This document shows positions 8,152 to 63,917 of a stretch of DNA of 64,000 bases, piece after piece. The stretch is from Euryarchaeota archaeon (GTDB lineage: Archaea > Thermoplasmatota > SW-10-69-26 > JACQPN01), in assembly GCA_016207515.1 (NCBI GenBank), contig JACQPN010000020.1:1-64000 (forward strand), given 5' to 3'. The position numbers and the translations under genes were made by a program. The notes under the pieces were generated by a model. It made no database searches. It was not told the origin of the DNA and was given only the letters and a program-made list of their open reading frames with translations. Position 1 is the first letter of the stretch, and every line of letters begins with the position of its first letter.

Positions 8152-9756
8152 TCAGTTCCTCGGTCCTGCCGGGAACTTCACGGGCGCAAGCGGGAGGTTC
8201 CGGGCGGACTGCGCGTAGGCGGTCGTCTCCACGCCCCCGGCCGCCGGAACGTGGGAATAGATGACATGCACCTCGCCCTTCGGCCCGATCTCCACTTGGA
8301 GGAAATCCAGGAGGCGTCGCGCCATCGGCCCCGACAGGACCGGTTGAGGGTCCGCCTTGATGACCTGCCAGTGCGGTTCGGCCGAATCGGCATCGAGGCT
8401 CACGGCGAGATACACGTACATCGCATCCTGGTCCGTGACGCGCGTCGGGCCGACGCTTGCGTTCGGGTAACCATACCAAGCGACCGCGACCTTGCCGGGC
8501 CCTCCAGCCGCGATCCACGGCATGACGTAGCTTCCCGCGGGCGACACCGTCTGCGCCGCGCTCCACGTCCCGTCGGCGAGTCGATGGGCGACCCGTATCG
8601 AGTACCCGACGGAAGCGTTGCCTTCGTCCCACACGACGTACGGCGTCCCGCTCTCGTCGATCGCGGGCGTGATGAACCCGTACGTGCCTTGCCCGTCGGG
8701 CATCGTGTAGACCGTCTCGTTCGCCTCCCAGCTCGCGGCCGCATCGACGCTGTGGTCCGCGATGATGCGTTGGTCCGGGGATCCGACGACCCAGATCTCG
8801 CCGGGGCTTCTCACGGCGGCGTTCGGGAAAATGTAGGAAGTCACGAAGTTCGGCTCGACTGGGAACGTCTTCCCGCCATCCGTGGATTTGTAGACATATC
8901 CCCCGGCGGTCGCCCCGCCGGCGTTGTACACGAAGTAGACGACGTCGTTGCCCTCGGCGCGTATCCAGGGTCGATCCTCAAGGGGCCGAAGCACCTGGTA
9001 ACTCGTGTGGCGCCACGTGCCGTCCTTCGTCCATGACGCGGTCTGCGAGTGGGCAAGCGAGATGTCCACCCAGAAGAGGTCGCCGTCGTCGTCTATTGCG
9101 AGGTCGCCTTCGACGCCATACGTCTCCCTGAGCTTGGTGTCGGACATCAATTCCGTGAACGTTACGCCATCGTCGCGTGAGACCCAGATGGGGGGCGCGT
9201 CGCCGACGCAACAGACGCCGGTGGCGTAGATCGTCCCGTCGCCGGCGATCTCTATCGAAGGCTCGGAAAGGCCGCAATCGTAGGGGGGTGTGTTGTCCGA
9301 GGCAGTGCAGGAACTCGGCACCGTGTACGCCTTCGAACCGAGTTCGTAACGCCTGACGATCGACAGCCCGAGGTTCTCGACGGCCGCCATGGGCTTCTCG
9401 ACCGCAACCAGAGGGAAAAAGAGGGGCGAGGTGAGGTCGCTCGACCGGACGGACGCGTAACCGGCCGCTTCCACGACCAGTTCGGTCGCTCCTGGAAGGA
9501 CGGAGATGACGAAGAACCCTGAGGAGTCCGTCGAGGCGAGCACGATCGGCTTCTCCGACGCAAAAAGCGTCACCGAGGCGCCCGCCAACGCAGCACCCGT
9601 GACGGAGTCGGCGACGAGGCCTTCGAGCGTCGGGTAAGACGTCGCGGCCTGCGGCGCCTCAAGGACAAGATCTGGGGGAGACGCGGCCGGAGGTTGGACG
9701 CACCCGGACACCGCCATGACGGCGGTGATGAACACGGCGAAACCCGCCCCTTTCAT
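8152..9756 (-). CDS. Beta-propeller lipoprotein with N-terminal carboxypeptidase-regulatory-like domain
   Basis: 534 residues. Lipobox AVSGC with the lipidated Cys at residue 19. Residues about 40-115 look like a CarboxypepD-regulatory-like (CnaB-type) domain (LEGLVADSVTGAALAGASV). The remainder resembles BNR/sialidase-type propellers with repeated WVSRDDG, VYKSTDGGKT and Asp-box-like turns. Catalytic sialidase residues cannot be assigned, so a binding role is as likely as an enzymatic one. Its C-terminal segment (RRLLDF...GPKGEVHVIY) recurs in the lipoproteins at 48626 and 50138. Confidence 0.72.
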   Translation of the reverse strand: MKGAGFAVFITAVMAVSGCVQPPAASPPDLVLEAPQAATSYPTLEGLVADSVTGAALAGASVTLFASEKPIVLASTDSSGFFVISVLPGATELVVEAAGYASVRSSDLTSPLFFPLVAVEKPMAAVENLGLSIVRRYELGSKAYTVPSSCTASDNTPPYDCGLSEPSIEIAGDGTIYATGVCCVGDAPPIWVSRDDGVTFTELMSDTKLRETYGVEGDLAIDDDGDLFWVDISLAHSQTASWTKDGTWRHTSYQVLRPLEDRPWIRAEGNDVVYFVYNAGGATAGGYVYKSTDGGKTFPVEPNFVTSYIFPNAAVRSPGEIWVVGSPDQRIIADHSVDAAASWEANETVYTMPDGQGTYGFITPAIDESGTPYVVWDEGNASVGYSIRVAHRLADGTWSAAQTVSPAGSYVMPWIAAGGPGKVAVAWYGYPNASVGPTRVTDQDAMYVYLAVSLDADSAEPHWQVIKADPQPVLSGPMARRLLDFLQVEIGPKGEVHVIYSHVPAAGGVETTAYAQSARNLPLAPVKFPAGPRN

Positions 9757-9873: not shown

Positions 9874-12800
9874 TCACATGAAATCGCTCAACTTGCTCTT
9901 CTTCACCTTGTCCGAGAGGAAGAGCGAGTTCATCGACTCCTCGATGAGTTCGATGCGCTGGCGCGTGTAGGCGTCGACCGCGTATTTCTCGCTGATGCGC
10001 TTGGAGACCTCAAGGTACTTCTTCACCGACGCCTCGTGGACCGTCATCGTGAGGCCGTTTCCGCAACGTCTGCCGCCCGCCTCCTTGATGCAGACGCCGG
10101 CGAGCGGGATGCGCCGGTACTTCGTTCCGCATTTTGTGCAGCGCATGCTCTGCTTGCTGAACGCCCTCAGGTTCCCGATGAGATCGGGAAGGAAGTGCGT
10201 CTCGATGACGCGGCTTGCGACGTTGGCGGCGTCGACGGCCCGGATCTTCGACGCGAGTTCCAGTTGGCCTTCCATCTTCTCCATCATGGTACCAAGCGAT
10301 TTGTAGGCGGAGAGGCGCGGGCCTTCCGCGATGTTCTTCGTGTCGTGCGTGAACCGGAAGCCGCGGTACTGGGAGGTCTTCCCGAGCCGTTTTGCGACGT
10401 CGTCGATGAGCTTCGACACGTCCTTCGGGCTCGGGTGGGTGGTCGTCGCCTCGTAGAACGCCAACGGGTACGAGGCCCCGACGTCGATGTTGTGGGCCTC
10501 CTTGTCGATCTCTGACGGGTCGATCCTGGTGGCGAGGACGAGTGGTGCGTCCATGAGGCCGCCGGTCGAGCCCGGCAGGTACGAGCGGCTGAAGTTCACG
10601 AGCGCGTCGAGAAGAAGCATCACGCAGTCCTCGTCGCCGTCGCAGTTCCTGCGCTTGGACGCGTGGTAGAAAGGATGCGCGAACCCGGCCTGGGCGTCCG
10701 TCCAACCGATGAGGCGGCCCAAGACGCCGCCCGAGGTGTGCGGCGCAAGCCCCACAAGCAGGTGCCCGATGAGGTCCTGATCCTTCTTCAGGCGGTAGTG
10801 GCGCGGGAGGTGGTAGTACTTCTCCAGAAGATCGTCCATGAAGGCGGCCGTCCTCGCCAGGTACTCGAGGCAGCCCTTGCTCACGACGAGGTCCTGGGTG
10901 AAGAGTTCGAGGACTTGATCGTCCGTCTCCAGGGGCAGCCCGTCGATGTCGGTCTTGTACCCAAGGTCCACGAGGGTCTTCACGTCCACGTGGATCTCGC
11001 GCGGCCGGAAGTGAGTGAGCGGGACGTCCGTCATGTCGAACCGGGTCGTCCCGTCCTTGAAGACGTAGACGCCGTGGATCGCGCGTAGGACCCCTTTGTG
11101 AAGCGGTTCGGGCGTCTTCTGCCGGCTGATGAGGCCTTGGACGCCCTTCACGCCGTCCGGGACCTTCGTAAGGCCCAGGTCCTTCTCCACCCCGTCGACG
11201 AGTTCTCCAAGGTCTACGCGTTGCGGCGTGGGCCGTTCCTTGGAGACGAGCGTGTGTTTGCCGCAGGAACCGCACCGGTTGGCGAACGTGCGCTCGCCGC
11301 AGCCGCTGCACGTGCGTAGGCCCACCTCGACCTCGACGACGCCCCGGGGCAGGCTCGACGCGACGCTTCCGTCGGCCGCCCGCGTCCTTCCGACCGAGCC
11401 GGCGTTCTCGGGTCTCGCGATGCTCTTCTTTTGTGACTCGGGGACGTAGCCCTTGGCCGCATCGACGACCTTGCGCTGGGCGCCGCCGGCGATCCCGATG
11501 GGAAAAAGCGAGTGCACCGGCGGGTTCATGAGGCGTTCGGCCGCCTTCTCGGGCCGGCCCATCCGCGCCCCGATTCGGTACGGGGAACGTCCCTTGATGA
11601 CCACACCTGCGAGTTTCGAGGCGATGGCCAAGGGGTCACGCTCGTCGCCGACGGCCGCCAGCGGAACGCGCCTTACCATCGTTTCGCCGCGGACGTCAAG
11701 TCCAAGGCCACGAAGGAGTGAATAGGAGTGGCGCCCGAGCTGGTTCTCACCGTTTCGAACGTCGTGGAGCGCACCCAGTGTGACGAGGAGTTCCTTCATG
11801 GCGGCTTCGGCCGGTAGCACGAGCGTCCCCCGCTCCCAACGGCCTTTGTCTTCGACGAACTGCGAGAGGGCCGCCATGTCCCTGGCGCTGAGGTCGTGCC
11901 AGAAGAGGTTGAAGCGCGGATGAAGGGCGACGCCTGACTTCTCGGCCAACGCGAACGCCTCCTCCGCGGTGCTCGGCGACGGCACGGGGCCTGTCTTGGA
12001 GTCGGGTGTTCCCGCGTCCGCTTTGGGGCCGGCTGATTGCGAGACGGTGGTGCCGCCCGCCTGCTCGTCGCCGTTCCCGGCCGCCCGCATCTCCATTTCC
12101 CACCATTCGACGCAGTAAGGGCTCTGGGGCAAGACTGCGTTGTTCTCCGCGAACTCGCCGAAGGGGATGAGTATCTCCCCGAGGTCGACGACGCGCTTCA
12201 CGAGAGGACGGAGTTCGACCGCCTCGGCCGTCGAACCGACCTCGACGAGAGCTCCCGAGGCCAAGAGCACCATGGGGCCCTCGATCGTGTCGCAAGGGGT
12301 CACGACCGTCCCTTTACCAGGCCGTTCGATCTTCATCTGCGTGCCGACGGCGAGGAATTCGTCGAGGAGGAACATCGTCGCCGGGTGTATCGCCGTCGAG
12401 GCGAGGCCAGCGGTGCGGGCCCTGCCGTACCGGAGACGGAAACCCCCCGCGCACGATGGGTGGGAAAAAACGGGGCGGCCGGCGATGAGGTCGTCCATGA
12501 ACCTGTGGTTCGGGGTGATCTCCGGCTTTGCCCCGGTCTTCGCGCCGGGCTCCGCCTTCTTGCCTTTCTTCATGAGCTCGTCAATGAACTCCCAACCGTC
12601 CATGCCGAGCGTCTTCACGTGCTTCTGGATCTTCGCTGCCTTCTGACAGACGCCCTCCGCGAGGACCAGGGCCATGCCGCCTCGTAGTTGGTTCGTATCA
12701 AGCCGCGGTAGGTCGCGCTTCCCGGTGACTTCGCGGTCCTGCGTGCCCTCGCCGTCGATCGATACCGGGCAATTACGCACCACGAGTTCGACTTCGGCGT

Positions 12801-13524
12801 CGCTTGGGCTGTACTGGAGCCTCACTTCCTGCTTGTAGGCGGGGATCTCCTCTTTGTACCGGTCGATCTCGTCCTGCGACGGGATGTAGCGGGCAAGCCC
12901 CAGGTCGCGCCGCGCCAGATCGCCAATGAGGACCGAGAGCGCCTGGGCCGTGCCTCCGGCCGAACGGATGGGGCCGGCGAAGAGTATTGAGACGTATTCG
13001 GTGCCGTCGACGTTGCGCCGGAGCTTCGTCTCCGAGATCCCGTCGAGCGGGGCGACCGTTATCCCTTCGGTGAGGATGGAGAGGCCCGTGCGGATGGCCT
13101 TGTCGACGGCCGAGCGCCGGTCGCCGGTCTTGGCGTGCCAGTCGCGTGCGACCGTCTTTGAGACGGCGAGGGCGACCTCTTCACGGTTCTTCCCCTGTTT
13201 CGTCTCGTCGCGTATGAGTTTCGCAACGCCCGGTATCTCGACTTGGGCCTCGACGCGCGCGGCAAGGTCCTCGGCCGGTGGCACCTCCACCTTCGTCTCC
13301 GGGTCGAGGCCTTGCGAGCGCGCCCGTTCGGCGATCTGGTATTCGATGCGCGTCGCCGTCTCGAGCCGTTTGAAGTATGCGGCCATCTCCGGGCTCAGGC
13401 CGTCGTTTTGCGCGATGACCACATCCGAGACGTCGCCGTCGAACGCGTCTTCCTCCGCTTCGCTGGGGTCGTCGATGTCGGCCTCGTCGGCCTCCCCGTC
13501 CTCCATCTCGAAGTAGCCTTGCAC
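9874..13524 (-). CDS. polC: DNA polymerase D large subunit DP2
   Basis: 1216-residue catalytic subunit of the archaeal replicative polymerase D. The catalytic aspartate signature NCDGDEDC lies in the C-terminal third, followed by LLDALVNFSRSYLPGSTGGLMDAPL. Two zinc-binding clusters are visible: CSGCGERTFANRCGSCGK in the middle and CTKCGTKY...C near the C-terminus. The N-terminus is very acidic before the conserved region near EMAAYFKRLE, so a later start is possible. Two low-complexity linkers (KKGKKAEPGAKTGAKPE, and GNGDEQAGGTTVSQSAGPKA onward) lengthen it. No intein. It lies downstream of polB with a 163-base gap carrying its own palindromic promoter element. Confidence 0.97.
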   Translation of the reverse strand: MQGYFEMEDGEADEADIDDPSEAEEDAFDGDVSDVVIAQNDGLSPEMAAYFKRLETATRIEYQIAERARSQGLDPETKVEVPPAEDLAARVEAQVEIPGVAKLIRDETKQGKNREEVALAVSKTVARDWHAKTGDRRSAVDKAIRTGLSILTEGITVAPLDGISETKLRRNVDGTEYVSILFAGPIRSAGGTAQALSVLIGDLARRDLGLARYIPSQDEIDRYKEEIPAYKQEVRLQYSPSDAEVELVVRNCPVSIDGEGTQDREVTGKRDLPRLDTNQLRGGMALVLAEGVCQKAAKIQKHVKTLGMDGWEFIDELMKKGKKAEPGAKTGAKPEITPNHRFMDDLIAGRPVFSHPSCAGGFRLRYGRARTAGLASTAIHPATMFLLDEFLAVGTQMKIERPGKGTVVTPCDTIEGPMVLLASGALVEVGSTAEAVELRPLVKRVVDLGEILIPFGEFAENNAVLPQSPYCVEWWEMEMRAAGNGDEQAGGTTVSQSAGPKADAGTPDSKTGPVPSPSTAEEAFALAEKSGVALHPRFNLFWHDLSARDMAALSQFVEDKGRWERGTLVLPAEAAMKELLVTLGALHDVRNGENQLGRHSYSLLRGLGLDVRGETMVRRVPLAAVGDERDPLAIASKLAGVVIKGRSPYRIGARMGRPEKAAERLMNPPVHSLFPIGIAGGAQRKVVDAAKGYVPESQKKSIARPENAGSVGRTRAADGSVASSLPRGVVEVEVGLRTCSGCGERTFANRCGSCGKHTLVSKERPTPQRVDLGELVDGVEKDLGLTKVPDGVKGVQGLISRQKTPEPLHKGVLRAIHGVYVFKDGTTRFDMTDVPLTHFRPREIHVDVKTLVDLGYKTDIDGLPLETDDQVLELFTQDLVVSKGCLEYLARTAAFMDDLLEKYYHLPRHYRLKKDQDLIGHLLVGLAPHTSGGVLGRLIGWTDAQAGFAHPFYHASKRRNCDGDEDCVMLLLDALVNFSRSYLPGSTGGLMDAPLVLATRIDPSEIDKEAHNIDVGASYPLAFYEATTTHPSPKDVSKLIDDVAKRLGKTSQYRGFRFTHDTKNIAEGPRLSAYKSLGTMMEKMEGQLELASKIRAVDAANVASRVIETHFLPDLIGNLRAFSKQSMRCTKCGTKYRRIPLAGVCIKEAGGRRCGNGLTMTVHEASVKKYLEVSKRISEKYAVDAYTRQRIELIEESMNSLFLSDKVKKSKLSDFM

Positions 13525-13687: not shown

Positions 13688-15376
13688 CTACGACGCGACG
13701 TTCGATGAGTTGTAATTGAAATCCAGGATTGACGCCTGACCAGACGCCAAGTCTATGATCGGGACGCGTGCCGGCTCCGGCGCGAGGCCGAGCATCTTCT
13801 GGTAATCGGTCTTGTCCTGCCATGTGGAGGAATTCACGAGAGTCACCCCGCGATACGTCCCCACCCTCGCCGAATGCACGTGGCCGGTGACGAAGATGTC
13901 CGGCGCGCTCTCGATGACGAGGTGGTCCTTGTGCTCTGGCGCTATTGGTGTCCGTCCCCCGTAGACGGGGCAGAGGTGGCGCCTCTTGATCATTTCCCGC
14001 ATCGCGCCGAGGGGGTCGCTGTACGTGAGGCCTTTCACGGACGTCATGTAATCGTCGAGCCCGTGCCCATGATAGGCGAGGACGCTCACGCCCTCGATCT
14101 TGAACCTGCACGGGTTTCCCACGAACTTGACGCCGGGCCTGAAGAGCTTCTGCACTTTGAGAGGGAAAGTCGGCTGCGGTTCCGCCTGCCGGACCGCGTC
14201 ATGCTCTCCCGGGAGCATTATCACTTCGACGCCTTGCGGGAGCCGGGCGAACTGACGCGCGGCCTCGGCGTACTGGTCCATGATGCTGGTGATGGCAAGT
14301 TCGTTCCTTTGACGCGGATAGACGCCGACCCCGTCGACGACGTCACCGCTCACGACGAGGTACTTCACGTTCCTTGCCTTCGCACGCTCCCGCTCGTCGC
14401 CGTGACGGCCGTTCATCCATTCGATGAAGCGATCCCATTCACGCGAGAGGAATGTCTTCGACCCGAAGTGGATGTCGCTGATGAACGCGGCGGACACGTT
14501 CCTCGTCGAACGGGCCGAGACCCGTTGGAGCGGGATATCCGGCCGGATGATGTCGTTTGGCTCGTTGAGGATGACCAATCCTTTGTCGCGAGGATCCTTC
14601 TTGAAGATCTTCCCGATGACACCTATCACCTCGTCCTGGACGATGGACTCGGCCGCCTTGATGCAATCCGGGTTCTTCTGCGACGCGAGCACCGACGCGG
14701 AACCCGTCTCGTCGTCCAGATCGATGAGGAGATGGCCGTTCTTCGTCTTCCGCACCGAGCTCACCATGCCGACGACCTTCACTTCGCCCGTGCCCTGCCA
14801 GATGCGGTCGATCGTGGTGAAGCCTTGGAGCTCCGGGCGGCTTCGCAGCATCGCCTTGATGGACCTGTACCGGTCCTGGAAATGTCTCTTGAAGTCCGCG
14901 AGTTCCCCGACGCATGAAGACTGGCCAGTGATGTCCCTCACGACCTCCACCATGGGACTATCCGAGGAGACGCCCGGCGGCAACTCGGAGGCGAACACGG
15001 GCGTGAAGGGTGCCACGGGAAGGGTGGGTGAAGAAACGCCGCGCGACGTGTCGCGAGCGCGATCCAACTCTGACATCTCGGCGACGAACCCCGCATAGGG
15101 CGTTAACCGGGGGGCGCCGGGATATCCACCGCCGGCAGCCGACGGCGCTTGGAACAGGGACGGGAAGGAGAGATCGCCCATCGACCCTGAAGCGTCCGCC
15201 GGCGGCGCGTGAAGCCGTTGAAGGTCGGAGAGGGCGATGACGAGCGGCGCGTCCTTCATCCCGGACATCGATTCCCGGAGGAATTCGAGCGGCCGCTCCT
15301 GTGTTTCGAGGAAGGCCGCCGCCATTGGGTCGAGAAGGACCCCACGGCTCTCAAGGAAATCGAAAACGTCTTTCAC
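13688..15376 (-). CDS. polB: DNA polymerase D small subunit DP1 (exonuclease subunit)
   Basis: 562-residue DP1, the Mre11-like phosphoesterase subunit that proofreads for polymerase D. The metallophosphatase motifs are all visible: SDIHFGS, VSGDVVDG, LPGEHDAV, YHGHGLDD and VTGHVHSA. An OB-fold (about residues 190-290, GEVKVVGMVSS..LLIDLDDETG) precedes them, and a variable N-terminal region with a low-complexity linker comes first. The start is GTG at 15376. Gene order polB-polC places both subunits in one orientation. Confidence 0.96.
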   Translation of the reverse strand: MKDVFDFLESRGVLLDPMAAAFLETQERPLEFLRESMSGMKDAPLVIALSDLQRLHAPPADASGSMGDLSFPSLFQAPSAAGGGYPGAPRLTPYAGFVAEMSELDRARDTSRGVSSPTLPVAPFTPVFASELPPGVSSDSPMVEVVRDITGQSSCVGELADFKRHFQDRYRSIKAMLRSRPELQGFTTIDRIWQGTGEVKVVGMVSSVRKTKNGHLLIDLDDETGSASVLASQKNPDCIKAAESIVQDEVIGVIGKIFKKDPRDKGLVILNEPNDIIRPDIPLQRVSARSTRNVSAAFISDIHFGSKTFLSREWDRFIEWMNGRHGDERERAKARNVKYLVVSGDVVDGVGVYPRQRNELAITSIMDQYAEAARQFARLPQGVEVIMLPGEHDAVRQAEPQPTFPLKVQKLFRPGVKFVGNPCRFKIEGVSVLAYHGHGLDDYMTSVKGLTYSDPLGAMREMIKRRHLCPVYGGRTPIAPEHKDHLVIESAPDIFVTGHVHSARVGTYRGVTLVNSSTWQDKTDYQKMLGLAPEPARVPIIDLASGQASILDFNYNSSNVAS

Positions 15377-15419: not shown

Positions 15420-16217
15420 TTTCAAAGTTTCCGATATGCGTCTCGAAAGCGAACTTCGAAGTCACACGCCGTGCCGCGCCCTTTCAAAGAAGGACGCACG
15501 CCGCGCCCTTACTCCCGACCCTCGTCGCGCGAGTCGTGACATGAGAGAAGACGCTGCGCCCGGGCGCCGTTGGGGATCGCGCCATCCGCCAACACGTTGC
15601 GACGTGGAAGTCCGGTTTCTTTCGCTTCCCCAGCGAACGTTGGACGCGGATGGGCCGCGACCGCCGGTTCCAATCGAAGAACAGGAACTACGCGTCGGAA
15701 CCGAAACCAAGTGTCGAACACCACGCCTTGATTCTCCATGCGAAGAGAGGGGGTGTCTTGCCAGGATCTATCTATTCCATTTTATCAAAAAACGCAAGCG
15801 AAACACTTATCTTGCGAACTGCGGTAGTCCGCTTCTCCTGGTTCAACTGCACCCTTGATGCGGGATGGGCAAGCCCAGTTTCGCCCGACCCGCGTCTTGC
15901 CGAGTACGCTATCGTCATCCTGACGGTCGTCCGGCAGGTTGCGGCGGACCTGAGTCCGATGGAACAGCGTATGCTCTATCGCGTGTGAGACCGCGGTCAG
16001 GCGGTCTTCCCGGGGCGGCACACCCCGGCGGCGACTTGCGCGCCCGCGAAAGCGCCTGCGGCTGCATCAGCAGTGAGGACCCCAGGAAAGCGGTACAGGA
16101 GGGACATCGAGTGAAACGCGGGCCGGCACCGCGCGCCATCGAAATGCGGGCGCGAGGCTGGGCCCACCGTGGAGCCTGATGCGAAGCCCGGAGGCCGCAG
16201 GAAGGAGGGGCGGGCAC
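15420..16217. other. Large intergenic region between polB and cdc6, candidate replication origin
   Basis: Nearly 800 bases separate the divergent polB and cdc6 genes with no convincing coding potential. An A+T-rich tract (about 15768-15815) is flanked by two short sequences in inverted orientation pointing at it: CCATGCGAAG followed by AGAGGGGGT (from 15736, plus strand) and CCAGGAGAAG (15832-15841, minus strand). These loosely resemble euryarchaeal origin recognition boxes. An inverted repeat TTCGCT/AGCGAA lies near 15621-15637. The stretch just before cdc6 is very G+C-rich with several short hairpins; I could not match it to RNase P or SRP RNA. Confidence 0.35.
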
Positions 16218-17477
16218 ATGATGGCACGAAGCAGACTATTCGACAGCTTGTTGCAAAGAGAACCGATCTTCAGGAACAAGGAGGTCCTCCAAGCGCGCTA
16301 TACGCCAGAGGAACTCCCGCACAGGCAATCCCAGGTGGCGCAGCTTGCGTCCATACTCGTCCCGGCGTTACGCGGCGAGACGCCTTCGAACGTTTTCATC
16401 TACGGGAAGACAGGCACAGGGAAGACCGCCGTCGCGAAATACGTGGGAAACGAGATCGAGCGGACGGGCCGCGAACTCAACAAGTCCGTGAACTACATCT
16501 ACGTGAACTGCGAGGAGGTCGACACCCAGTACCGTGTCCTCACCAACATCGCGAACCACTTGAGCAAAAGCGGCGGCGGACGCGTCCCGTTCACGGGGTG
16601 GCCCACAGACGAAGTGATGTCTCGGCTCAAGGAGCGTATCGACGCTCGCGACGGGGCCACCATCATAATCCTCGACGAAGTGGACAAACTGGTGAAGAAC
16701 GCCGGCGGAGACGTGCTCTACAACCTCACAAGGCTCAATGCGAGCCTCCATAATGCGCGCGTCTCGATGATCGGCATATCGAACGACCTCAACTTCACCG
16801 ACCACCTTGACAGCCGCGTGAAATCGAGCCTTGCGCAGGAAGAGATGGTCTTCCACCCGTACAACTCCGGGCAACTCGAGGACATCCTCCGCCAACGCGC
16901 GAAGGTCGCTTTCAAGGACGGCATCCTCGACGACGGCGTCATACAGCTCTGCGCGGCTCTCGCGGCGCACGAGCATGGGGACGCGCGACGCGCATTGGAC
17001 CTCCTTCGCGTGTCGGCGGAGGTCGCCGAGCGCGACAACGCGAAACGCGTGAACGAGGGGAACGTGAGACTCGCCCAGAAGAAGATCGAGATAGACCGCG
17101 TCTCGGAGGTGGTAAAGACGCTTCCCACACAGAGCAAACTCGTGCTCCTTGCTTCTTTGCGGATGGCGCAAGGGCAGAACCTGGGATTTAGCGTTACGAA
17201 CCTCCTCACGACGGGCGAGGTCTACAACGCGTATTCGTCCCTTTGCAGGCAGGTCACGATGGAGACGTTGACGCAAAGACGCGTCACAGACCTCATATCG
17301 GAGCTCGACAGCCTCGGCATCCTGAACGCGAAGGTCATCAGCAAGGGCCGATACGGGCGCACCAAACAGATCCAGGTATCCGTCCCCATCGAAGAGACGC
17401 TGGCGGTCCTTTACGAGGACGAGACCATCGCGGCCACTGCCGGCACGGCGCTCGTGAAGCAGGTACCGCTCGCCTGA
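16218..17477 (+). CDS. cdc6: Orc1/Cdc6 replication initiator
   Basis: 419-residue initiator ATPase that binds origins and loads MCM. Walker A GKTGTGKT (residues 63-70), Walker B IIILDEVDKL and sensor-1 region SMIGISNDLNF are followed by the lid and a C-terminal winged helix (residues about 310-400). The chosen ATG at 16218 has a purine-rich GGAGGGG just upstream and begins MMARSRLFDSLL; the frame is open to 16179. Adjacent to a long intergenic region, as is common for archaeal origins. Confidence 0.96.
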   Translation: MMARSRLFDSLLQREPIFRNKEVLQARYTPEELPHRQSQVAQLASILVPALRGETPSNVFIYGKTGTGKTAVAKYVGNEIERTGRELNKSVNYIYVNCEEVDTQYRVLTNIANHLSKSGGGRVPFTGWPTDEVMSRLKERIDARDGATIIILDEVDKLVKNAGGDVLYNLTRLNASLHNARVSMIGISNDLNFTDHLDSRVKSSLAQEEMVFHPYNSGQLEDILRQRAKVAFKDGILDDGVIQLCAALAAHEHGDARRALDLLRVSAEVAERDNAKRVNEGNVRLAQKKIEIDRVSEVVKTLPTQSKLVLLASLRMAQGQNLGFSVTNLLTTGEVYNAYSSLCRQVTMETLTQRRVTDLISELDSLGILNAKVISKGRYGRTKQIQVSVPIEETLAVLYEDETIAATAGTALVKQVPLA

Positions 17478-18225: not shown

Positions 18226-19170
18226 CTATTGGGGCTTCTTGAGGAGCGCTCTCAAAGCGCCCTTCGCTCCACGGTCCTCGGGCGCAAGCCGCCCCTCCTT
18301 CTTCATCTTGTTCCAATGCGAGATCCGCTCGTAACTTGCCGGCGCCACCGCGAGGACCGCGGCGGAACCTGCGAGCGAATACCAGAGATCACAAGGCGCC
18401 CACGCGTTCGTGAACGGCGGGTGGCACCAGTCGTTACGGACCTGGTTCGGGTCCGCTCCAAGGGCCAACTTGATGAGCCCGAACCACGGGATCTCACCGC
18501 GGGCCTTCCCCTCTATCCATTCGACCTTCACGGGCTCGCGTGAAATCCCTCCCACTTGGTCTGGCGACGGGTTGTTGTCGCCCCACGTGATGAAACCGCT
18601 GAATGTCGGCTTGTAGCCGCTTTGGCGCGACAAGTGGCTTTGCGACCCGGTCTCGTCCATCTTCAGTTCCGGGATGTAGATCCCTTCCGGCCCGAACGTG
18701 CAAGCGTTGTCGGAGCGCTGGCGAGGCGGACACGACTTGAAAGTCCCTTCGACGCGGTACGCCGTCGTCCCGTTGGCGATCGTGACGTCGACCCACGTGT
18801 AGGCCCTGTGGATGATCGGCGTCTGCGGGCCCTCCGGCGTGACCTTGGCGCCGTTGCGGTAATAGACGACGACGTCGCCGTTTGCGCTGTATGTCGGATC
18901 CTTCGCCTGGGCGAACGTCACGATGTCGGAACGTTTGGTCACCTTCTGGACGAACACCATGTCCCCAGGATCGATCGTTCCGACCTTGCCAAATCCAGGG
19001 ACGGGAACGGTCGTGTCGTGGAATATCAATGTGCGCTCGTGCATCATGCTTCCCGACTCCACCACGACCATCGGCGGCCACACGCCCGTATAGATGTACA
19101 AGGCGCCGAGTATCCCGCCGACGATGGCCAAGGCTATCGCGATGTCCTTGACCGCGGAATCCCGGGCCAT
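18226..19170 (-). CDS. Signal peptidase I, archaeal/ER type
   Basis: 314 residues. An N-terminal membrane helix (about 7-30) leads to the catalytic serine motif VVESGSMMHE (Ser41). The second catalytic residue is the His in TPIIHRAY, replacing the bacterial Lys as in Sec11-type enzymes; GDNNPSPDQ supplies the conserved acidic region. A further hydrophobic stretch lies near the C-terminus. The ATG at 19170 is favoured over the longer frame because a TATA-like box sits about 26 bases upstream. It would process the many exported proteins in this window. Confidence 0.9.
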   Translation of the reverse strand: MARDSAVKDIAIALAIVGGILGALYIYTGVWPPMVVVESGSMMHERTLIFHDTTVPVPGFGKVGTIDPGDMVFVQKVTKRSDIVTFAQAKDPTYSANGDVVVYYRNGAKVTPEGPQTPIIHRAYTWVDVTIANGTTAYRVEGTFKSCPPRQRSDNACTFGPEGIYIPELKMDETGSQSHLSRQSGYKPTFSGFITWGDNNPSPDQVGGISREPVKVEWIEGKARGEIPWFGLIKLALGADPNQVRNDWCHPPFTNAWAPCDLWYSLAGSAAVLAVAPASYERISHWNKMKKEGRLAPEDRGAKGALRALLKKPQ

Positions 19171-19190
19171 CGGCCGAGTTACGAAGAGGT

Positions 19191-19202
19191 CTGATAAAAA
19201 GG
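19191..19202 (-). promoter_or_regulatory. TATA-like promoter box of the signal peptidase gene
   Basis: CCTTTTTATCAG on the minus strand is centred about 26 bases before the ATG at 19170, the spacing expected for a leaderless archaeal transcript. It supports the short start. Confidence 0.5.
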
Positions 19203-19447
19203 TTCTCTCCCCGGAACAACGCGGTACGCCACGCACAAGCCAGACGGGGAAACTCTGATCACTTTCGAGGCCGACCGCGATCGACGACGCGTTTCCATGG
19301 GTCCTGATTAGACAAGTCCTTACCGTGCCTCCTTGGCAACGCGTCCTTGGCAATGCAACGTCGACGGCCGACCCTCGACGGTGCATCCTTGGTGGCCCGC
19401 CCCTTGGGTGATACGTTCTTCTACACCGTCACCCGTAGCGGCGTCTG

Positions 19448-20959
19448 TTGAAACGCGACGTCATACTCATGTCACCTGGCGGGGACGAGACGGAGATGCG
19501 GGACCTCCTCGCTTCCCTAAGATGGACGGTCCTTGCGAGTGTGCGCCAGCGTAACCGCCGGCCTGATCCGAGCCGGTTCTTCGGAAAAGGCAAACTCGAC
19601 GAGGCGCGCGAAGTCCTCGCCGATTGGACGAAACGGCTGATCGACGAGCGGGCGGCGGGGCTTTCGGGCGAGGACGCGGGACTACCGGCCGACGCGAGCG
19701 ACGCGATCGTGGATGCAGTGTTCGATGCGGATGAACGGGCCCGCACGGGCAAGAGTAGGGGCCAAGCGAGGGGCCGTAAGGATGCCGTTTCGAAGAGGCA
19801 ATGGGGAACAAGAAAACGCTCGAAGAAGCCGAGTCGAAGGCAACGCGCACTGGTGGTGCGACCGACCGTCGTGGTCGACGCGGAACTGAAGGCTTCACAA
19901 CTTGCGGGGATAGAGAACGCCTTGGGCGGGGCGGAGGTCTTCGACCGTACGCGTGTCATCCTCGAGATATTCCAGGAGCGCGCCCAGAACGAAGAGGCGC
20001 GTCTCCAAGTGGAGGCGGCGCGCCTACGTTACGAGATGCCGCTTGTGCGCGAGTACATCCGGTTGGCAAAGCTGGGCGAGCATCCGGGTTTCATGGCGGG
20101 GGGCGAGTACGGCGTCAACCAGTACTTCGACACCATCCAAAAGCGAGCGACGAAAGTGAACCGCGAGCTCGAACACATCGGAAGCGAGCGGGCGGCAAGA
20201 CGGAAACACCGGCGACGCGGCGGGTTCCTTCTCGTGAGTCTCGCGGGCTACACGAATGCAGGAAAGAGCAGTCTCATGAGACGTCTATCCGGCGAGAACG
20301 TGCTCGTGGAGAACCGGATGTTCTCCACCCTCGACACCAAGACGGCCAGGTTGACGTTCCGAAGCGCATCGGAGGAGGAGCCGGCAGGGGCGAGGCCGGC
20401 GTCGGATGTGAATGGCAAGGCGTCCGAGACCGGTGCGCATCAAGATGATAGTTCGAGGCGGATGTCGCGCGATGACGTCGCAAAAACGGATGAGGCGCAA
20501 GATCTTAGAGAAGGGCAGCCGCCTGTGGGTGAAGACCGTGGTCAAGGACAGCGGCCTGTACTCGTCACCGACACCGTTGGTTTCATCCGGGATCTGCCGC
20601 CGTGGCTCATCAAAGCGTTCAGGTCGACGCTCGAGGAGATCGCCTTGTCCGACGTCATCATACTGGTGGTAGACGCTTCGGACGCGCCCGAAGAGATAGC
20701 CGACCGGTTCCAGGCGAGTTATCAAGTGCTTCTCGGGTTCGAGCGGATCCCGACGCTCGTCGTCGCTTTGAACAAGAGCGACCTTCTCCCTTCCGACGAA
20801 GAGCGCGATGAAGCGCGTCGCGTCGTGATCGATCCGGGGCTTGTTCCCGATGATCGCGTCGTTTTCACTTCCACGAAGACGGGTGAAGGGTTGGACCGCT
20901 TGGTGGATGTGGCTACGCGACTGCTTGCCGACGGGTCGCCCGAGGATCCGTCTTGGTAG
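19448..20959 (+). CDS. hflX: HflX-type ribosome-associated GTPase with an unusual G-domain insertion
   Basis: 503 residues. The N-terminal HflX domain includes the GKGKLDE nucleotide-binding motif and the conserved RTRVILEIFQERA region, followed by a helical linker and the GTPase domain. G1 is GYTNAGKSS, the switch region is STLDTKTARL (family norm TLDPTTR), G3 is DTVGF and G4 is NKSD. About 60 hydrophilic residues (roughly 307-370, rich in Glu, Asp, Arg, Gly and Gln) are inserted between G2 and G3, where normal HflX has about a dozen. Start TTG 19448; ATG 19469 possible. Confidence 0.92.
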   Translation: MKRDVILMSPGGDETEMRDLLASLRWTVLASVRQRNRRPDPSRFFGKGKLDEAREVLADWTKRLIDERAAGLSGEDAGLPADASDAIVDAVFDADERARTGKSRGQARGRKDAVSKRQWGTRKRSKKPSRRQRALVVRPTVVVDAELKASQLAGIENALGGAEVFDRTRVILEIFQERAQNEEARLQVEAARLRYEMPLVREYIRLAKLGEHPGFMAGGEYGVNQYFDTIQKRATKVNRELEHIGSERAARRKHRRRGGFLLVSLAGYTNAGKSSLMRRLSGENVLVENRMFSTLDTKTARLTFRSASEEEPAGARPASDVNGKASETGAHQDDSSRRMSRDDVAKTDEAQDLREGQPPVGEDRGQGQRPVLVTDTVGFIRDLPPWLIKAFRSTLEEIALSDVIILVVDASDAPEEIADRFQASYQVLLGFERIPTLVVALNKSDLLPSDEERDEARRVVIDPGLVPDDRVVFTSTKTGEGLDRLVDVATRLLADGSPEDPSW

Positions 20960-21217
20960 GGGGACCCCGTACCTTCGATTGGAGTCCAATGGAACTGATC
21001 GTGGGCTATGGGTCCGAGCTCGAAAATGAAAAGCCCCTTCGTTCAATTTATTTCGATGAATTCTTATAGTATGAAGATTATAGCTATCTGGTACTTTTTC
21101 TTTCAAGTATTCTAATAGATGTATTTTCAAAAACATCTCCAATAGAAGCAAGGGGGTCTCCCCCTCTGACGATTGCCATGCCGGGGCCTTTATCATGGTT
21201 TTTGACCTTGGCTTCTT
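20960..21217. other. Intergenic region with A+T-rich island
   Basis: About 21030-21140 is strikingly A+T-rich for this chromosome. It contains an imperfect hairpin (GATGTATTT/AAAACATC, 21118-21137) and is followed by AGGGGG-TCT-CCCCCT. No gene was found. The downstream gene appears to have its own TATA-like TTTATCATGG at 21189-21198, so the island is not needed as its promoter. Confidence 0.4.
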
Positions 21218-21907
21218 GTGAAGATAGCCGTCCTCTCCGACATACACTCCAACCTCCACGCCCTCAAGGCGGTCATGGAGGATGTCACGGCAATGGACGT
21301 GGACATGATCGTGAGCCTCGGCGACATGGTCGGTTACAACGCCTTCCCGAACGAGGTCCTCGACATCCTTGTCCAATCAGATGTCAAGATGATCCTTGGT
21401 AACCACGACCGGGCGGCCGTGACCGGCGACGTGTTCGGGTTCAACCCCGTCGCGATCGAAGGCGTTCGGTTCAGCACGAAACAGCTACGCGCAGCCCACA
21501 AGGACCTCCTTGATGGTCTGCCCGAGACCCTTTCGCTCGACATCGACGGCACCAAACTGGACCTTTTCCATGGCTCACCGAGGCAACCCCTCATGGAATA
21601 CGTCTACCCGGATGATCTACCGAAGGTCGGGCCGGGTTTCTGGGACCAGACCGGCGCAGACGTGATCCTCCTCGGTCATACGCATTTACCGGCCCAACAC
21701 GGCGCCGGAAACAAGTTCATTGGAAACCCTGGAAGCGTCGGCCAGCCACGCGACAGCGATCCGCGCTCGTCCTACGCGATCCTCGACCCGAAGAAACGTC
21801 GCCTCCAGTTCAAGCGTGTCGCCTACGACATAGAGGCCGCCGCCGAAGCGAACCTCGACGCAGGCCTTCCAGAATTCTTGGCGTCCAGGCTCATCGCGGG
21901 GAAATAA
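21218..21907 (+). CDS. Metallophosphoesterase (YfcE/MJ0936-like phosphodiesterase)
   Basis: 229-residue calcineurin-like phosphoesterase with the complete dimetal set: SDIHSN, VSLGDMVGY, LGNHDRA and LGHTHLP, then GNPGSVGQPRD. This arrangement is typical of small archaeal and bacterial phosphodiesterases that hydrolyse model phosphodiesters and cyclic nucleotides; the natural substrate is unknown. Start GTG at 21218, directly before the family-typical KIAVLSDIH, with a TATA-like box centred about 25 bases upstream. Confidence 0.9.
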   Translation: MKIAVLSDIHSNLHALKAVMEDVTAMDVDMIVSLGDMVGYNAFPNEVLDILVQSDVKMILGNHDRAAVTGDVFGFNPVAIEGVRFSTKQLRAAHKDLLDGLPETLSLDIDGTKLDLFHGSPRQPLMEYVYPDDLPKVGPGFWDQTGADVILLGHTHLPAQHGAGNKFIGNPGSVGQPRDSDPRSSYAILDPKKRRLQFKRVAYDIEAAAEANLDAGLPEFLASRLIAGK

Positions 21908-21939: not shown

Positions 21940-22049
21940 GGTGACTCCCTTCGGTCGTCACCTCGTAGAGACTCCGTAACTTCGTCTCTACTTTGTGGAT
22001 TTCGCTCCGCTCAATCCACTCGTTGATCCCAAGTAGCTTCGCTACTTGG
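21940..22049. repeat. Run of four short hairpins between convergent genes
   Basis: Four inverted repeats follow each other: GGTGAC/GTCACC (21940-21962), GTAGAGAC/GTCTCTAC (21965-21991), GTGGATT/AATCCAC (21995-22019) and CCAAGTAGC/GCTACTTGG with a TTC loop (22029-22049). The last includes the stop codon of the PRC-barrel gene. A short direct repeat (GACTCCCTTCGGT, two copies) leads in at 21930-21955. They may end both convergent transcripts, though archaeal termination usually needs U-tracts, which are absent. Confidence 0.6.
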
Positions 22050-22281
22050 TCTCAATCACAATGACGTCCTTGATGGACTTGACCGCTTCGAACGGGAACA
22101 GGATGTAGCCCTTCGGATCCCTCTTGAAAAGCCGGGGGTCGACGTCTTCAGACGGTTCCACAAGCACTTGCGAGAGGTCGCCGCTCTCGGTGTTCACGAC
22201 CACGTTCCTCAGCCGGCCGAGCATCAATCCCTCGTCCGACATGACAGTCTTACCACGGATATCCGAAGCGAGAATCTTCAT
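22042..22281 (-). CDS. PRC-barrel domain protein
   Basis: 79 residues forming a single PRC-barrel: KILASDIRGKTVMSDEGLML followed by GRLRNVVVNTESGDLSQVLVEP and a C-terminal FPFEAVKSIKDVIVIE strand. Such small archaeal proteins are RNA- or protein-binding modules related to RimM and photosynthetic H-subunit tails; the specific partner is unknown. The ATG at 22281 is preferred to a longer open frame because KILASDI begins the domain and a TATA-like GTTTAAATAATA lies about 35 bases upstream (22314-22325). Confidence 0.8.
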   Translation of the reverse strand: MKILASDIRGKTVMSDEGLMLGRLRNVVVNTESGDLSQVLVEPSEDVDPRLFKRDPKGYILFPFEAVKSIKDVIVIETK

Positions 22282-22313
22282 TAGTGCATCCTCGCGCAAA
22301 AAATGGCGCCCGG

Positions 22314-22325
22314 TATTATTTAAAC
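22314..22325 (-). promoter_or_regulatory. TATA-like box for the PRC-barrel gene
   Basis: GTTTAAATAATA on the minus strand, an isolated A+T-rich stretch in G+C-rich surroundings. TTTAAA is symmetrical, so it could also serve the plus-strand frame beginning at 22388. Confidence 0.45.
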
Positions 22326-22387
22326 TACCCGATTCTGTTGCGCGCGGCGACGCACGGTTCAACGAGGCGGGCCGGAACCGGTAGGAC

Positions 22388-22753
22388 GTGCTCGGCCGCT
22401 GCCGCGACATCGAGGCCGCGTTTCCAGGCGCCAAGACGATGGTGCTTCAACGGAAACTCGGGTATGGGAGCACGGGGCACGCGGAGTTCACGGTGCGCAT
22501 CCGAAACGCAGCCGATACTGACCTCGTCGCGGCGATCGTAAATTCCTTCCCGGGGGCGGCATCCGTGGCGAACAACCTCGTCATCGACCCGCGACGCCGC
22601 GCACCGAATGGCGGTCCCGAATCCGGGCTTGGATTCCCAACCAATTCAGGCCCCACCTCAATCCGCGAGTCGACCGCGTGGTCGCGTGCTCATTCCCCGA
22701 CGTGCGGTATCGGCCTGAGGTCCACCGTGAGCTTCGGGTCGACGACGATGTAA
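22388..22753 (+). CDS. Hypothetical protein, uncertain
   Basis: A 121-residue frame whose first 70 residues look protein-like (IEAAFPGAKTMVLQRKLG, FTVRIRNAADTDLVAAIVNS) with G/C-rich third codon positions, while the last 50 are low in structure and the final 64 bases overlap the end of the amidotransferase gene on the other strand. The start is GTG two codons after an in-frame stop. It may be a short gene whose 3' end has been altered. No family recognised. Confidence 0.4.
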   Translation: MLGRCRDIEAAFPGAKTMVLQRKLGYGSTGHAEFTVRIRNAADTDLVAAIVNSFPGAASVANNLVIDPRRRAPNGGPESGLGFPTNSGPTSIRESTAWSRAHSPTCGIGLRSTVSFGSTTM

Positions 22754-24067: not shown

Positions 24068-26281
24068 CTACTGCGCCTCTATCCCCGCCGTGTAATCCTT
24101 CCGCTTGACCTTCACGAGGCCGCCTTCGAGCTGTTCTGCGATCCTGTTGTAGTACTGGATCGTCGCTTCATCGACGCTCGGTCGGATGAGGCTCAAGGCC
24201 TTCTCGAAGTGCCGCGTCTCGACGATGGTCGCGTTGATGTCCTCGCGTAGCGCGAGTACCCCTGCTTCCCTGCACAGCGAAGCGATGTCCGCTCCGACGT
24301 AGCCTTTGCACTTGTCGGCGAGTGGTTCGAGTTCCACGTTCTTCAGGGGCATCTTGGCCGTGTGGATCTTCAGGATCTGCAGGCGCGACGCCTTGTCCGG
24401 GGCCGGGGCCTGGAGCAACCTGTCGAAGCGGCCGGCGCGTAGGAGTGCGTTGTCGATGATGTCGGGGCGGTTCGTCGCGGCGAGGATGATGACGCCATCG
24501 AGACTCGCTAGCCCGTCGACGGACGTGAGGAGTTGGTTCACGATGCGTTCGGTGACGTGGCTGTCGCCCATGCCGCCGCCGCGCCGGGGCGCGATCGCGT
24601 CCAACTCGTCGAGGAAGACGATGGAAGGGGCGGCTTGCTTTGCCTTCTTGAATATCTCGCGGATCGCCTTCTCCGATTCGCCGACCCACTTGGACAGGAT
24701 CTCCGGACCCTTGATTGAGATGAAGTTGGCCTTGCTCTCCGTGGCGACAGCCTTGGCGAGGAGCGTCTTTCCCGTTCCCGGGGGGCCGTAGAGGAGGATG
24801 CCACGCGGCGGTTTGATGCCGAGGCGCTTGAACGCCTCGGGATTGGTGAGCGGCCACTCGACCGCTTCCTTGAGTTCCTGTTTGAGGTCTTGGAGCCCGC
24901 CCACCTCGTCCCACGACACGTGCGGAATCTCGATCATCACTTCGCGTAGCGCCGAAGGTTCGATCTCACGGATCGCTTGCGTGAAATCGTCCATCGTGAC
25001 GATCATCTTCTCCAACGTCTCCGCCGGAATCGGCTTGTCGAGGTCTATCTCCGGCAGGTAGCGCCGGAGTGCCCGCATCGCGGCCTCTTTGCCAAGCGCC
25101 GCGAGGTCTGCGCCGACGAACCCTTGTGAATTGTCGCAGAGGACCTCGATGTCGAAATCGTCAGAGAGCGGCATCGAGCGTGAGTGGATCTGGAGGATCT
25201 CTTTCCGGCCTTCCCGGTCGGGCACACCGATCTCGATCTCCCGGTCGAACCGGCCCGGCCGCCTTAGCGCCGGGTCGACCGCGTCGACGCGGTTCGTTGC
25301 GCCGATGACGATGACCTTGCCCCGCGACTTAAGACCGTCCATGAGGGTCAAGAGCTGGGCGACGACGCGCCTCTCCACCTCGCCTTGGGTCTCGTCGCGC
25401 TTCGAGGCGATCGAGTCGATCTCGTCAATGAAGACGATTGAAGGGGCGTTCTGTTCCGCCTCCTCGAAGATCTCCCGGAGCCGCGCCTCGGATTCACCGT
25501 AGAACTTGGACATTATCTCGGGGCCTTGGATGGAATAGAAACTCGCTCCCGATTCGTTGGCGACCGCCTTCGCGATCAAGGTCTTGCCAGTGCCCGGCGG
25601 GCCGTGAAGAAGAACGCCCTTCGGCGGGTCGATGCCGAGCCGGTCGAATAACTCGGGGTGCTTCAACGGGAGTTCGATCGTCTCGCGGACCTTCGTGAGT
25701 TCCCCACGAAGTCCCCCGACGTCCTCGTAGCTGACCTTCGGTGCGTGGAGTTCCGCGGTCGTCACCGACTCTTCGCGGATGTGGACCTCCGTCTGCTCCG
25801 TGATCTGTACAATGCCGCCCGGGTTCGTGTCGACGACGACGAATGGAAGCGCACGTCCGATGAGAGCGATCCCCGGGACGATGACGGTGTCACCCTTCGT
25901 GACGGGGCGCTTGAAGAGACCCCGCTTGACGACCCCTTCGATGCCGCTACCAAACTGTAGTTTCTGACGGTCTTCGATGACGGGCGCGAGCGTTATCCTC
26001 GCAGCGGCCTGGCCATCGACCTTGCGAATCCTCACCTTGTCGCCGATCGAGACGCCTGCGTTGTCGCGGATGAGTCCGTCCATGCGGATGATGCCCTTGC
26101 CCTCGTCGTCCGGGTGAGCCCTCCAGACGATCGCGGCCGTCGTCTTCTTGGAATGGATCTCCACGAGGTCGCCGACCGTGAGGTTGAGGTCAAGACGTGT
26201 GGCGGCGTCCACCCGGACCCTGCCCTTCGCTACGTCTTCCTGGACCGCTTCGGCGACTTTGAGCGTGACTTCTTTCACCAT
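24068..26281 (-). CDS. cdc48: Cdc48/VAT AAA+ unfoldase
   Basis: 737-residue homologue of p97/VAT. The N domain (1-180, double-psi barrel plus a second subdomain) leads to D1 with Walker A GPPGTGKT (227-234) and Walker [11 protein letters not shown], and D2 with a second GPPGTGKT and [10 protein letters not shown]. Both rings carry the arginine finger region ([13 protein letters not shown]). It unfolds proteins for the proteasome. The C-terminus lacks an obvious aromatic HbYX tail. An operator-like palindrome lies at 26374-26390 upstream. Confidence 0.97.
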
Positions 26282-61207: not shown

Positions 61208-61282
61208 TACGGGCGGCGGGATTTGAACCCGCGCTATAGCGTTGGCAACGCCATGTACTAGACCAGGCTATACTACGCCCGT
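61208..61282 (-). tRNA. tRNA-Gly (anticodon GCC)
   Basis: On the minus strand acceptor ACGGGCG (from 61282) pairs with CGCCCGT. The anticodon arm TGGCG-TTGCCAA-CGCTA carries GCC, and the T-arm is GCGGG-TTCAAAT-CCCGC. No intron, CCA not encoded. Confidence 0.93.
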
Positions 61283-62518: not shown

Positions 62519-62603
62519 TGCAAGGGGTCGGATTTGAACCGACGGACTCCTAAGAGGGCAGATTTTAAGTCTGCTGCCTTTGGCCAGGCTTGGCTACCCT
62601 TGC
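62519..62603 (-). tRNA. tRNA-Leu (anticodon TAA)
   Basis: On the minus strand acceptor GCAAGGG (from 62603) pairs with CCCTTGC. The anticodon arm is GCAGA-CTTAAAA-TCTGC (TAA), a long variable arm CCCTCTTAGGAGTCC follows, and the T-arm is GTCGG-TTCAAAT-CCGAC. The long variable arm identifies a type II tRNA. Confidence 0.95.
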
Positions 62604-62717: not shown

Positions 62718-63917
62718 GTGGAGACTGACGTCCTCATCGTCGGCGCGGGTCCCGTGGGGGCCCAAGTCGCCCGCCACTTCGCGATCTCAGGCGTCAAGGT
62801 CACGATGTTGGAAGAGCACGATGAGATCGGGATGCCGGTCCAATGCTCGGGGCTCTTCACGCCCGCCGTTTTCGACATGGTCCCGAAATCCGTGCAGGCC
62901 GTACAGCTGAACCGGATCCGGGGCGCCCACATCTACAGTCCGTCCGGCGTGAGGCTCGATGTCCGGGCACGGGAGGTCCAGGCGATCGCATGCGACCGCG
63001 CCGCCTTCGACCGGGCCTGTGTCAAGGAGGCGGTGGACGCCGGAGCGACGATCACGATGGGCGCCAAGGCCGTCGCGGCGCAGCGCGAAAACGGCGGCGT
63101 GAAGGTCCTAGTGAAAGGCAAGGGCGGGGAAACCTGGGTGCGAACGCGGCTTCTCGTCGGCGCGGACGGCGTACAATCCAACGTCGCGAAGTGGTTCGGT
63201 CTTCCTCGCGCGGTGCAACTCATCTCCTGCCATGGCGGCATCATGGACGACGTGGAGGTCGAGGACCCTGAATCCGTGGAGATGTGGACCGGCCAGATGC
63301 AGGCGCCGAATTTCTTCAATTGGATCGTCCCCGACGGGAAGAATGCCGGCAAGGTCGAGGTGGGCGTCTTCAACGCGCCCCTGCCCGCGATACACTATTG
63401 GCAGAGGATGTTCGACGACCCACAGTCCGGGCGTCTTCTCAAGAACGCAAAGTTGAGGCAGACGATCAGTGGTGTGATACCGATCGGGCCGGTCGCTCGC
63501 AGCACGACGGACAATGTGATGCTTGTCGGCGACGCGGCGGCACAGGCGAAACCGACGACCGGCGGCGGGGTCTACATGGGATTCCGGGCGGCGCGACACC
63601 TTGCGGATGTCGCCGTCGAGGCTCTCGAGGATGGCGATTGTTCGAACGCCGCCTTGAAACGGTACCATGACCTTTGGATGGGCGACGTGGGCCGCGAGTT
63701 GAAGCTCGGAATGTGGTTCCGCCGGGCCTTCATGGGCCTCAACGACAAGCAGATGGACGAACTCTTCTCGATACTCTCGGAAAAAGAGATGCTGATGCTC
63801 GTGAACAGCCTCGGCGACATCGACTACCCATCGAAGGTGATCTTCGAGATGTTCAGGCGCCGACCGCAATTACTGAAGTTCGCGCCGAGTGTTGTCAAGT
63901 CGTTCTTCCTCAACTGA
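62718..63917 (+). CDS. Geranylgeranyl reductase family FAD-dependent oxidoreductase
   Basis: 399 residues. The FAD-binding GxGxxG is in VLIVGAGPVGAQVARHFA (about 5-22), the family PVQCSGLF motif follows, then LLVGADGVQSNVAKWFG and the ATG/DG region NVMLVGDAAAQAKPTTGGGVYMG. These enzymes saturate the isoprenoid chains of archaeal lipids; bacterial-type relatives act on menaquinone or chlorophyll. The start GTG 62718 has GAGGGG in front and fits the family N-terminus; the frame is open further upstream through the tRNA-Leu. The remaining 83 bases to the window end hold no gene. Confidence 0.92.
   Translation: METDVLIVGAGPVGAQVARHFAISGVKVTMLEEHDEIGMPVQCSGLFTPAVFDMVPKSVQAVQLNRIRGAHIYSPSGVRLDVRAREVQAIACDRAAFDRACVKEAVDAGATITMGAKAVAAQRENGGVKVLVKGKGGETWVRTRLLVGADGVQSNVAKWFGLPRAVQLISCHGGIMDDVEVEDPESVEMWTGQMQAPNFFNWIVPDGKNAGKVEVGVFNAPLPAIHYWQRMFDDPQSGRLLKNAKLRQTISGVIPIGPVARSTTDNVMLVGDAAAQAKPTTGGGVYMGFRAARHLADVAVEALEDGDCSNAALKRYHDLWMGDVGRELKLGMWFRRAFMGLNDKQMDELFSILSEKEMLMLVNSLGDIDYPSKVIFEMFRRRPQLLKFAPSVVKSFFLN

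Follow-up and report, generated by a model that had tools for sequence, protein, structure and literature searches.

The 64,000 nucleotides of archaeal DNA analysed here (hereafter the window) probably hold an oriC1-type replication origin neighbourhood, whose origin most likely lies at 20958-21163, between the gene for an HflX-type GTP-binding protein and a phosphoesterase gene. This site is 3.5 kb downstream of cdc6, with three intervening genes, and 5.3 kb from the interval 15733-15841, which an initial annotation had proposed as a possible origin next to cdc6. That an origin is present in this cdc6/polymerase D neighbourhood is very probable, and in this respect the initial annotation stands, but 15733-15841 contains a single origin recognition box (ORB), while the full signature is found at 20958-21163. 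The genes concerned are the following:

9874-13524 (-), DNA polymerase D large subunit DP2 (NCBIfam NF003103 and TIGR00354, above cut-off)
13688-15376 (-), DNA polymerase D small subunit DP1 (NCBIfam NF003118, above cut-off)
16218-17477 (+), cdc6/orc1 (Orc1/Cdc6.1), the likely initiator (NCBIfam ORC1-type DNA replication protein, above cut-off; alternative start 16179)
18226-19386 (-), signal-peptidase-like gene, member of the conserved oriC1 neighbourhood (TIGR02228, 1.4e-06, under the curated cut-off)
19448-20959 (+), HflX-type GTP-binding protein, 3' end adjoining the candidate origin (Pfam GTP-bdg_N, GTP-bdg_M, MMR_HSR1)
21218-21907 (+), calcineurin-like phosphoesterase (metallophosphoesterase), 5' end adjoining the candidate origin (Pfam PF12850, PF00149)

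The oriC1 gene set is thus present in the window (hflX, cdc6, the signal-peptidase-like gene, DP1 and DP2), and the NCBIfam profiles bear out the earlier claim that both polymerase D subunits are encoded next to cdc6. Relatives of the signal-peptidase-like gene adjoin cdc6 within the class of this genome and in other lineages. The gap between DP1 and cdc6, given earlier as 840 bases, measures 841 bases to the ATG at 16218 or 802 to that at 16179, of which ATG 16218 is the likelier start because a GGAGG-like ribosome site precedes it, and the gap holds no known RNA, since an Rfam scan of the window gave only two tRNAs (61208-61282 and 62519-62603). The nearest solved structures to Orc1/Cdc6.1 are the archaeal Orc1 chains 2qby_A and 2v1u_A, both reportedly solved with origin DNA, and the cdc6 of a Thermoplasmata archaeon outside the class (L032) compares at 57% with that of the window, which hints at a place within Thermoplasmatota. 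A PRC-barrel gene (22042-22434, -) and a CDC48-family ATPase gene (24068-26281, -) also lie close to the candidate origin; these two may be part of the ancestral origin neighbourhood, because at two loci outside the class (L043, L044) cdc48 and a PRC-barrel gene directly adjoin the ORB upstream of cdc6.

Paired ORBs between hflX and the phosphoesterase gene

The genes for HflX and the phosphoesterase are 258 bp apart, and the candidate origin, which takes up most of this space, has three parts:

20958-20987 (-), left ORB CTCCAATCGAAGGTACGGGGT, G-tract outward, toward hflX; matrix score 11.7; exact loose-pattern match at 20964-20984
20988-21133, A+T-rich tract, candidate duplex-unwinding element
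21134-21163 (+), right ORB CTCCAATAGAAGCAAGGGGGT, G-tract outward, toward the phosphoesterase gene; the window's best score, 20.9

Two inverted ORBs with G-strings, the left one weak, enclose an A+T-rich region that may serve for unwinding. Its A+T content peaks in the 100 bp at 21045-21144, which extend into the right ORB. With 76% A+T, where the contig (105,823 bp) averages 38%, this is the most A+T-rich 100-bp segment of the whole contig, and with a nearest-neighbour energy of -110.9, where the average is -155.5 (sd 6.6), also the least stable. Another stretch of very high A+T content (72% over 100 bp), with ORBs absent nearby, lies on the same contig beyond the window (C20, 65401-65557; L034, 1401-1557).

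The scores come from a matrix for which relatives of cdc6 were sought in 60 genomes (59 matched) and two named records, and the loci were scanned for ORB-like sites. Of 26 loci outside the class (L008-L033), 11 supplied the 20 sites of the matrix and the other 15 none that was used, the genome of the window being excluded from training; sites were chosen by eye for intact G-tracts near cdc6, and weaker matches with three mismatches were omitted. Its consensus, nnTTTCCAnAGGAAATAAAGGGGT, differs from the published archaeal ORB only in minor letters and by one base in the spacing (PMC4153887, Table 2). In the window it ranks 21134-21163 (+) first with 20.9 and 15731-15760 (+), upstream of cdc6, second with 19.6, followed by 39998 (-) with 13.2 and 20958-20987 (-) with 11.7. 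Simulation of 100 sequences of 64 kb gave maxima that averaged 11.8 (sd 3.1, up to 24.5) and reached 19.6 in two cases, so the box upstream of cdc6 is credible but is outscored by a partnered site 5.3 kb away. An outward (-,+) pair as strong as this one within 300 bp occurred in 3 of 300 simulated contigs, and the pair in this single genome is therefore good but not decisive evidence.

Only three places in the 2.67-Mb genome match the loose pattern YTCCANNNGAANNNRNGGGGT exactly, and all of them lie within 5.4 kb on contig C20, a result that is partly circular because the pattern was widened to fit the three sites of the window. Allowing up to two mismatches gave 62 sites, and 61 in the control, so the signal is confined to the exact matches. 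The pattern TCCANNNGAANNNNNGGGGT, built on the conserved columns of the training set minus one A that is absent from the three window sites, is matched exactly at five places in this genome, among them the three ORBs described here. A second matrix, made from ten published Methanomassiliicoccales ORBs, gave its highest score on the contig at 90848 and the next at 21136, with 15734 and 20964 outside the top six, and it ranked an ORB between hflX and the phosphoesterase gene first in the stretches from three other genomes of the class (G001, G002, G004). A sequence-only model (R1) was also run on the whole genome, where its best E among the 150 of 493 candidates scored was 0.36, for a site on contig C23 slightly above the sites here, and it proved too weak for single sites.

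What is established here is the sequence anatomy of the site, how rare it is in the genome, and that it is conserved between the same genes. Of the seven genomes sampled from the class, five have hflX (this genome, G000, and G001, G002, G004 and G005), while it was not found in G003 and G006, both about 75% complete. The outward ORB arrangement between hflX and the phosphoesterase gene is present in four of these five. The order in G001 is mirrored (phosphoesterase, hflX, signal peptidase, cdc6, DP1, DP2), with ORBs at 1934 (-) and 2167 (+) of L040 in the hflX-phosphoesterase gap, and from this genome ORBs 3' of hflX were predicted beforehand for G002 and G004, which was borne out: the gap before the phosphoesterase gene has ORBs at 6268 (-) and 6565 (+) of L070 in G004 and at 2410 (-), 2663 (-) and 3558 (+) of L071 in G002. 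Both gap lengths are probably overstated, since the borders are the ends of tblastn matches. In all four gaps the G-tracts face away from an A+T-rich centre, and part of the tract that separates the ORBs ranks among the most A+T-rich 0.5% of the respective locus. Pooled, the four gaps have 9 matches of at least 11.5 in 3.8 kb, against 0.054 expected from a background of 213 kb in which no match reaches 15; L072 and L073 were left out of this background because they had been fetched for already having a match. The fifth genome, G005, has no ORB in its hflX-phosphoesterase gap and has instead a single ORB between hflX and cdc6. The long gap of G002 also contains, at 2900-3260 of L071, degenerate tandem repeats of the CCCTGGAA..CGCGAGGGGTCGCAC type that resemble broken ORBs.

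The outward orientation is also found outside the class, where 5 of the 11 loci have opposite-strand matches of at least 14 within 1.6 kb and all five have an outward pair, one of them (L033) with an inward pair besides; two of the remaining loci have wider outward pairs spanning cdc6, and four have matches on one strand only. At another locus outside the class (L046, genome G037) ORBs at 9309 (-), 10867 (+) and 10981 (+) flank hflX on both sides, a layout intermediate between the usual arrangement and that of the window.

As the three ORBs lie within 5.4 kb and nothing else in the genome matches the loose pattern exactly, an extended bipartite origin could be imagined, in which Orc1/Cdc6 would occupy the ORB upstream of cdc6 as well as the pair beyond hflX. 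The ORBs on both sides of hflX in L046 and those reported for 'Ca. M. alvus' on either side of cdc6 (PMC4153887) are in keeping with this. We nevertheless consider such an origin improbable, as the A+T core lies within the pair alone and the distance between pair and cdc6-side ORB grows to 18 kb in G004.

A further explanation is that the A+T-rich tracts are promoters or terminators and the boxes regulatory or fortuitous, with the origin elsewhere, for example at 46-51 kb or on another contig. The GC-skew check suggested in the initial annotation gave a minimum at 46 kb of the 106-kb contig, which is neither 15733-15841 nor 20958-21163 and does not decide between them, and GGGT skew turns at 50.5 kb, likewise not near 21 kb; the two skews were uninformative as origin locators on this contig and support neither site. 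These minima, taken at face value, and lone ORB-like matches such as that at C23:63157 would suit an origin elsewhere. Against it stand the outward pairs conserved in four genomes, with nothing of at least 15 in the 213-kb background, and the second cdc6 paralogue, on contig C15, which has no ORB of at least 9 within about 9 kb and was rejected as an origin site. We therefore regard this explanation as very unlikely. A match at C15:140386, 11 kb from the second paralogue, consists of overlapping partial matches (13.5 and 16.2), and the C23 site (63151-63180; L072, 5151-5180) is a single strong ORB-like site of 20.9, with no cdc6 match in the surrounding 10 kb.

The interval between cdc6 and DP1

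The initial annotation described 15733-15841 as an A+T-rich tract flanked by inverted boxes. Its elements are:

15734-15754 (+), left box, very probably a solitary ORB upstream of cdc6 (CTCCATGCGAAGAGAGGGGGT), G-tract toward cdc6; matrix score 19.6 (match 15731-15760); exact loose-pattern match
15766-15815, A+T-rich tract, 68% A+T over 50 bp, rank 7 among the contig's non-overlapping 50-bp segments
15832-15841 (-), right box, not an ORB, without G-tract; minus-strand starts in 15800-15850 never score above -10.7

The letters are as they had been described, give or take one or two bases, namely CCATGCGAAG at 15736-15745 (+) with the G-tract next to it, CCAGGAGAAG at 15832-15841 (-), and 48 bases with 66.7% A+T at 15768-15815. 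The A+T-rich tract is genuine, only 0.16% of the contig's 50-base segments being equally A+T-rich, though it is not among the strongest of the contig. Of the two boxes, the left one, judged by its score, is very probably a true ORB, whereas the right one was rejected for its missing G-tract, a score far below zero and the wrong orientation, and the matrix scan of the cdc6-DP1 gap gave no second ORB above 3.2. The interval lies inside the gap upstream of cdc6 and thus adjoins the initiator gene, but because the right box fails as an ORB it is a solitary ORB beside an A+T-rich stretch and not a complete origin. The tract is on the G-tract side of this ORB and not between two ORBs, whereas the conserved pairs have G-tracts facing away from the A+T-rich centre, and we rejected it as a complete origin.

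A search for further copies of the box, also suggested initially, found CCANGNGAAG nine times in the window, against 2.3 expected. Genome-wide (2.67 Mb) there are 272 such sites against 195 for the reversed control. By arithmetic, the 272 sites should give one or two inverted pairs spaced by no more than about 100 bp, and an inverted CCANGNGAAG pair alone is therefore weak evidence.

ORBs upstream of cdc6 are nevertheless a recurrent feature. Outside the class they are usually found directly upstream of cdc6, and within it the gap upstream of cdc6 has an ORB of at least 16 in G000, G003, G004 and G005, with every G-tract toward cdc6, while G001 has only a weak match of 8.1 and G002 one of 11.6 in the opposite orientation. 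Four such ORBs in 2.9 kb, against 0.04 expected, exceed chance. The A+T-richest 100 bp of the G001 locus, between cdc6 and DP1, has a palindromic TTCCACTGGAA core without G-tract (L040, 6313-6343), which is perhaps a decayed ORB.

These strong ORBs upstream of cdc6 in three other genomes of the class, the usual position outside the class, the credible left box and the genuine A+T tract would all be expected if the origin were 15733-15841 itself, with the tract as its unwinding element and the hflX-phosphoesterase pair secondary or inactive. We consider this unlikely. There is one ORB only, the tract is on its wrong side, and a complete signature lies 5.3 kb away. In addition, in Haloarcula hispanica, deletion of either ORB impairs oriC1 (PMC3936714), and the deficient locus oriC3-cdc6D*, with one ORB-like element on each flank of cdc6D, does not support autonomous plasmid replication (PMC3528665). 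The side of the A+T tract, the failure of the right box and these H. hispanica results lead us to read 15733-15841 as an Orc1/Cdc6 site plus promoter DNA: the ORB at 15734-15754 is probably an auxiliary or regulatory site, or perhaps an origin remnant, and the tract at 15766-15815 is probably promoter DNA between the divergent cdc6 and DP1 genes.

Proposed function and evolution of the locus

For the origin at 20958-21163 we infer protein binding, melting and initiation in the following manner. Orc1/Cdc6.1, encoded 3.5 kb away, would bind both inverted ORBs, the very A+T-rich tract that separates them would melt, and bidirectional replication would follow from loading of the MCM helicase. The box at 15734-15754 would be a third Orc1/Cdc6 site, in the cdc6-DP1 gap, and would most likely act in cdc6 expression or in initiator titration, or be the one surviving half of an earlier origin that lay immediately upstream of cdc6.

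The general rule in archaea is an origin directly beside cdc6, and the distance of 3.5 kb seen here counts against the proposed site. In G004, cdc6 is 17 kb from the ORB pair, and in G002 it is on a different contig. We tentatively speculate that in this order-level lineage the origin has become uncoupled from the gene for its initiator: the unwinding element and its two ORBs would have stayed with hflX and the phosphoesterase gene while cdc6 moved up to 17 kb away and kept one orphan ORB that might now control or titrate the initiator; this could be so, though we would not favour it over its contrary. The orphan ORB upstream of cdc6 may serve in autoregulation of the initiator, a subject that to our knowledge has been little studied in archaea. 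Our literature searches found no mapped origin for this lineage, no paper on HflX, cdc6, archaea and replication origin, and none on Thermoplasmatota, Cdc6 and origin of replication. This work gives such a lineage a precise candidate origin position, extends the oriC1 gene neighbourhood beyond haloarchaea, and suggests that searching only beside cdc6 can miss a complete origin.

Comparison with known archaeal origins

Archaeal origins typically have an A+T-rich region near cdc6 with ORBs on its flanks (PMC4010727). The deficient H. hispanica oriC3-cdc6D* resembles 15733-15841 in having one ORB-like element per intergenic flank, but it belongs to another initiator gene, and it lacked replication activity when cloned (PMC3528665). 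The oriC of Pyrococcus abyssi likewise lies in a replication island with cdc6, DP1 and DP2 (PMC2643942 and PMC4010727), and the linkage of cdc6 and DP1 at origins was noted earlier in the former; the P. abyssi origin is, however, directly upstream of cdc6, where the window has a single ORB.

In Methanomassiliicoccales, too, one of the two cdc6 paralogues has ORB pairs close by, some of them downstream of the gene, and the other paralogue is without ORBs (PMC4153887). Their ORBs differ in lying directly up- or downstream of cdc6, while the pair in the window is three genes away, and in keeping a TGGAAA core (PMC4153887).

In gene content the window resembles haloarchaeal oriC1, for example oriC1-cdc6A of H. 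hispanica, whose surroundings likewise comprise genes for a GTP-binding protein, Cdc6, a signal peptidase and a DNA polymerase, and in which two inverted ORBs ending in G-strings also enclose an A+T-rich region (PMC4010727 and PMC3936714). The window differs from haloarchaeal oriC1 in the position of its pair, beyond hflX, beside the phosphoesterase gene and 3.5 kb from cdc6, and in the ORB itself, which reads CTCCA...GAAG where that of oriC1 reads TTCCA...GAAA.
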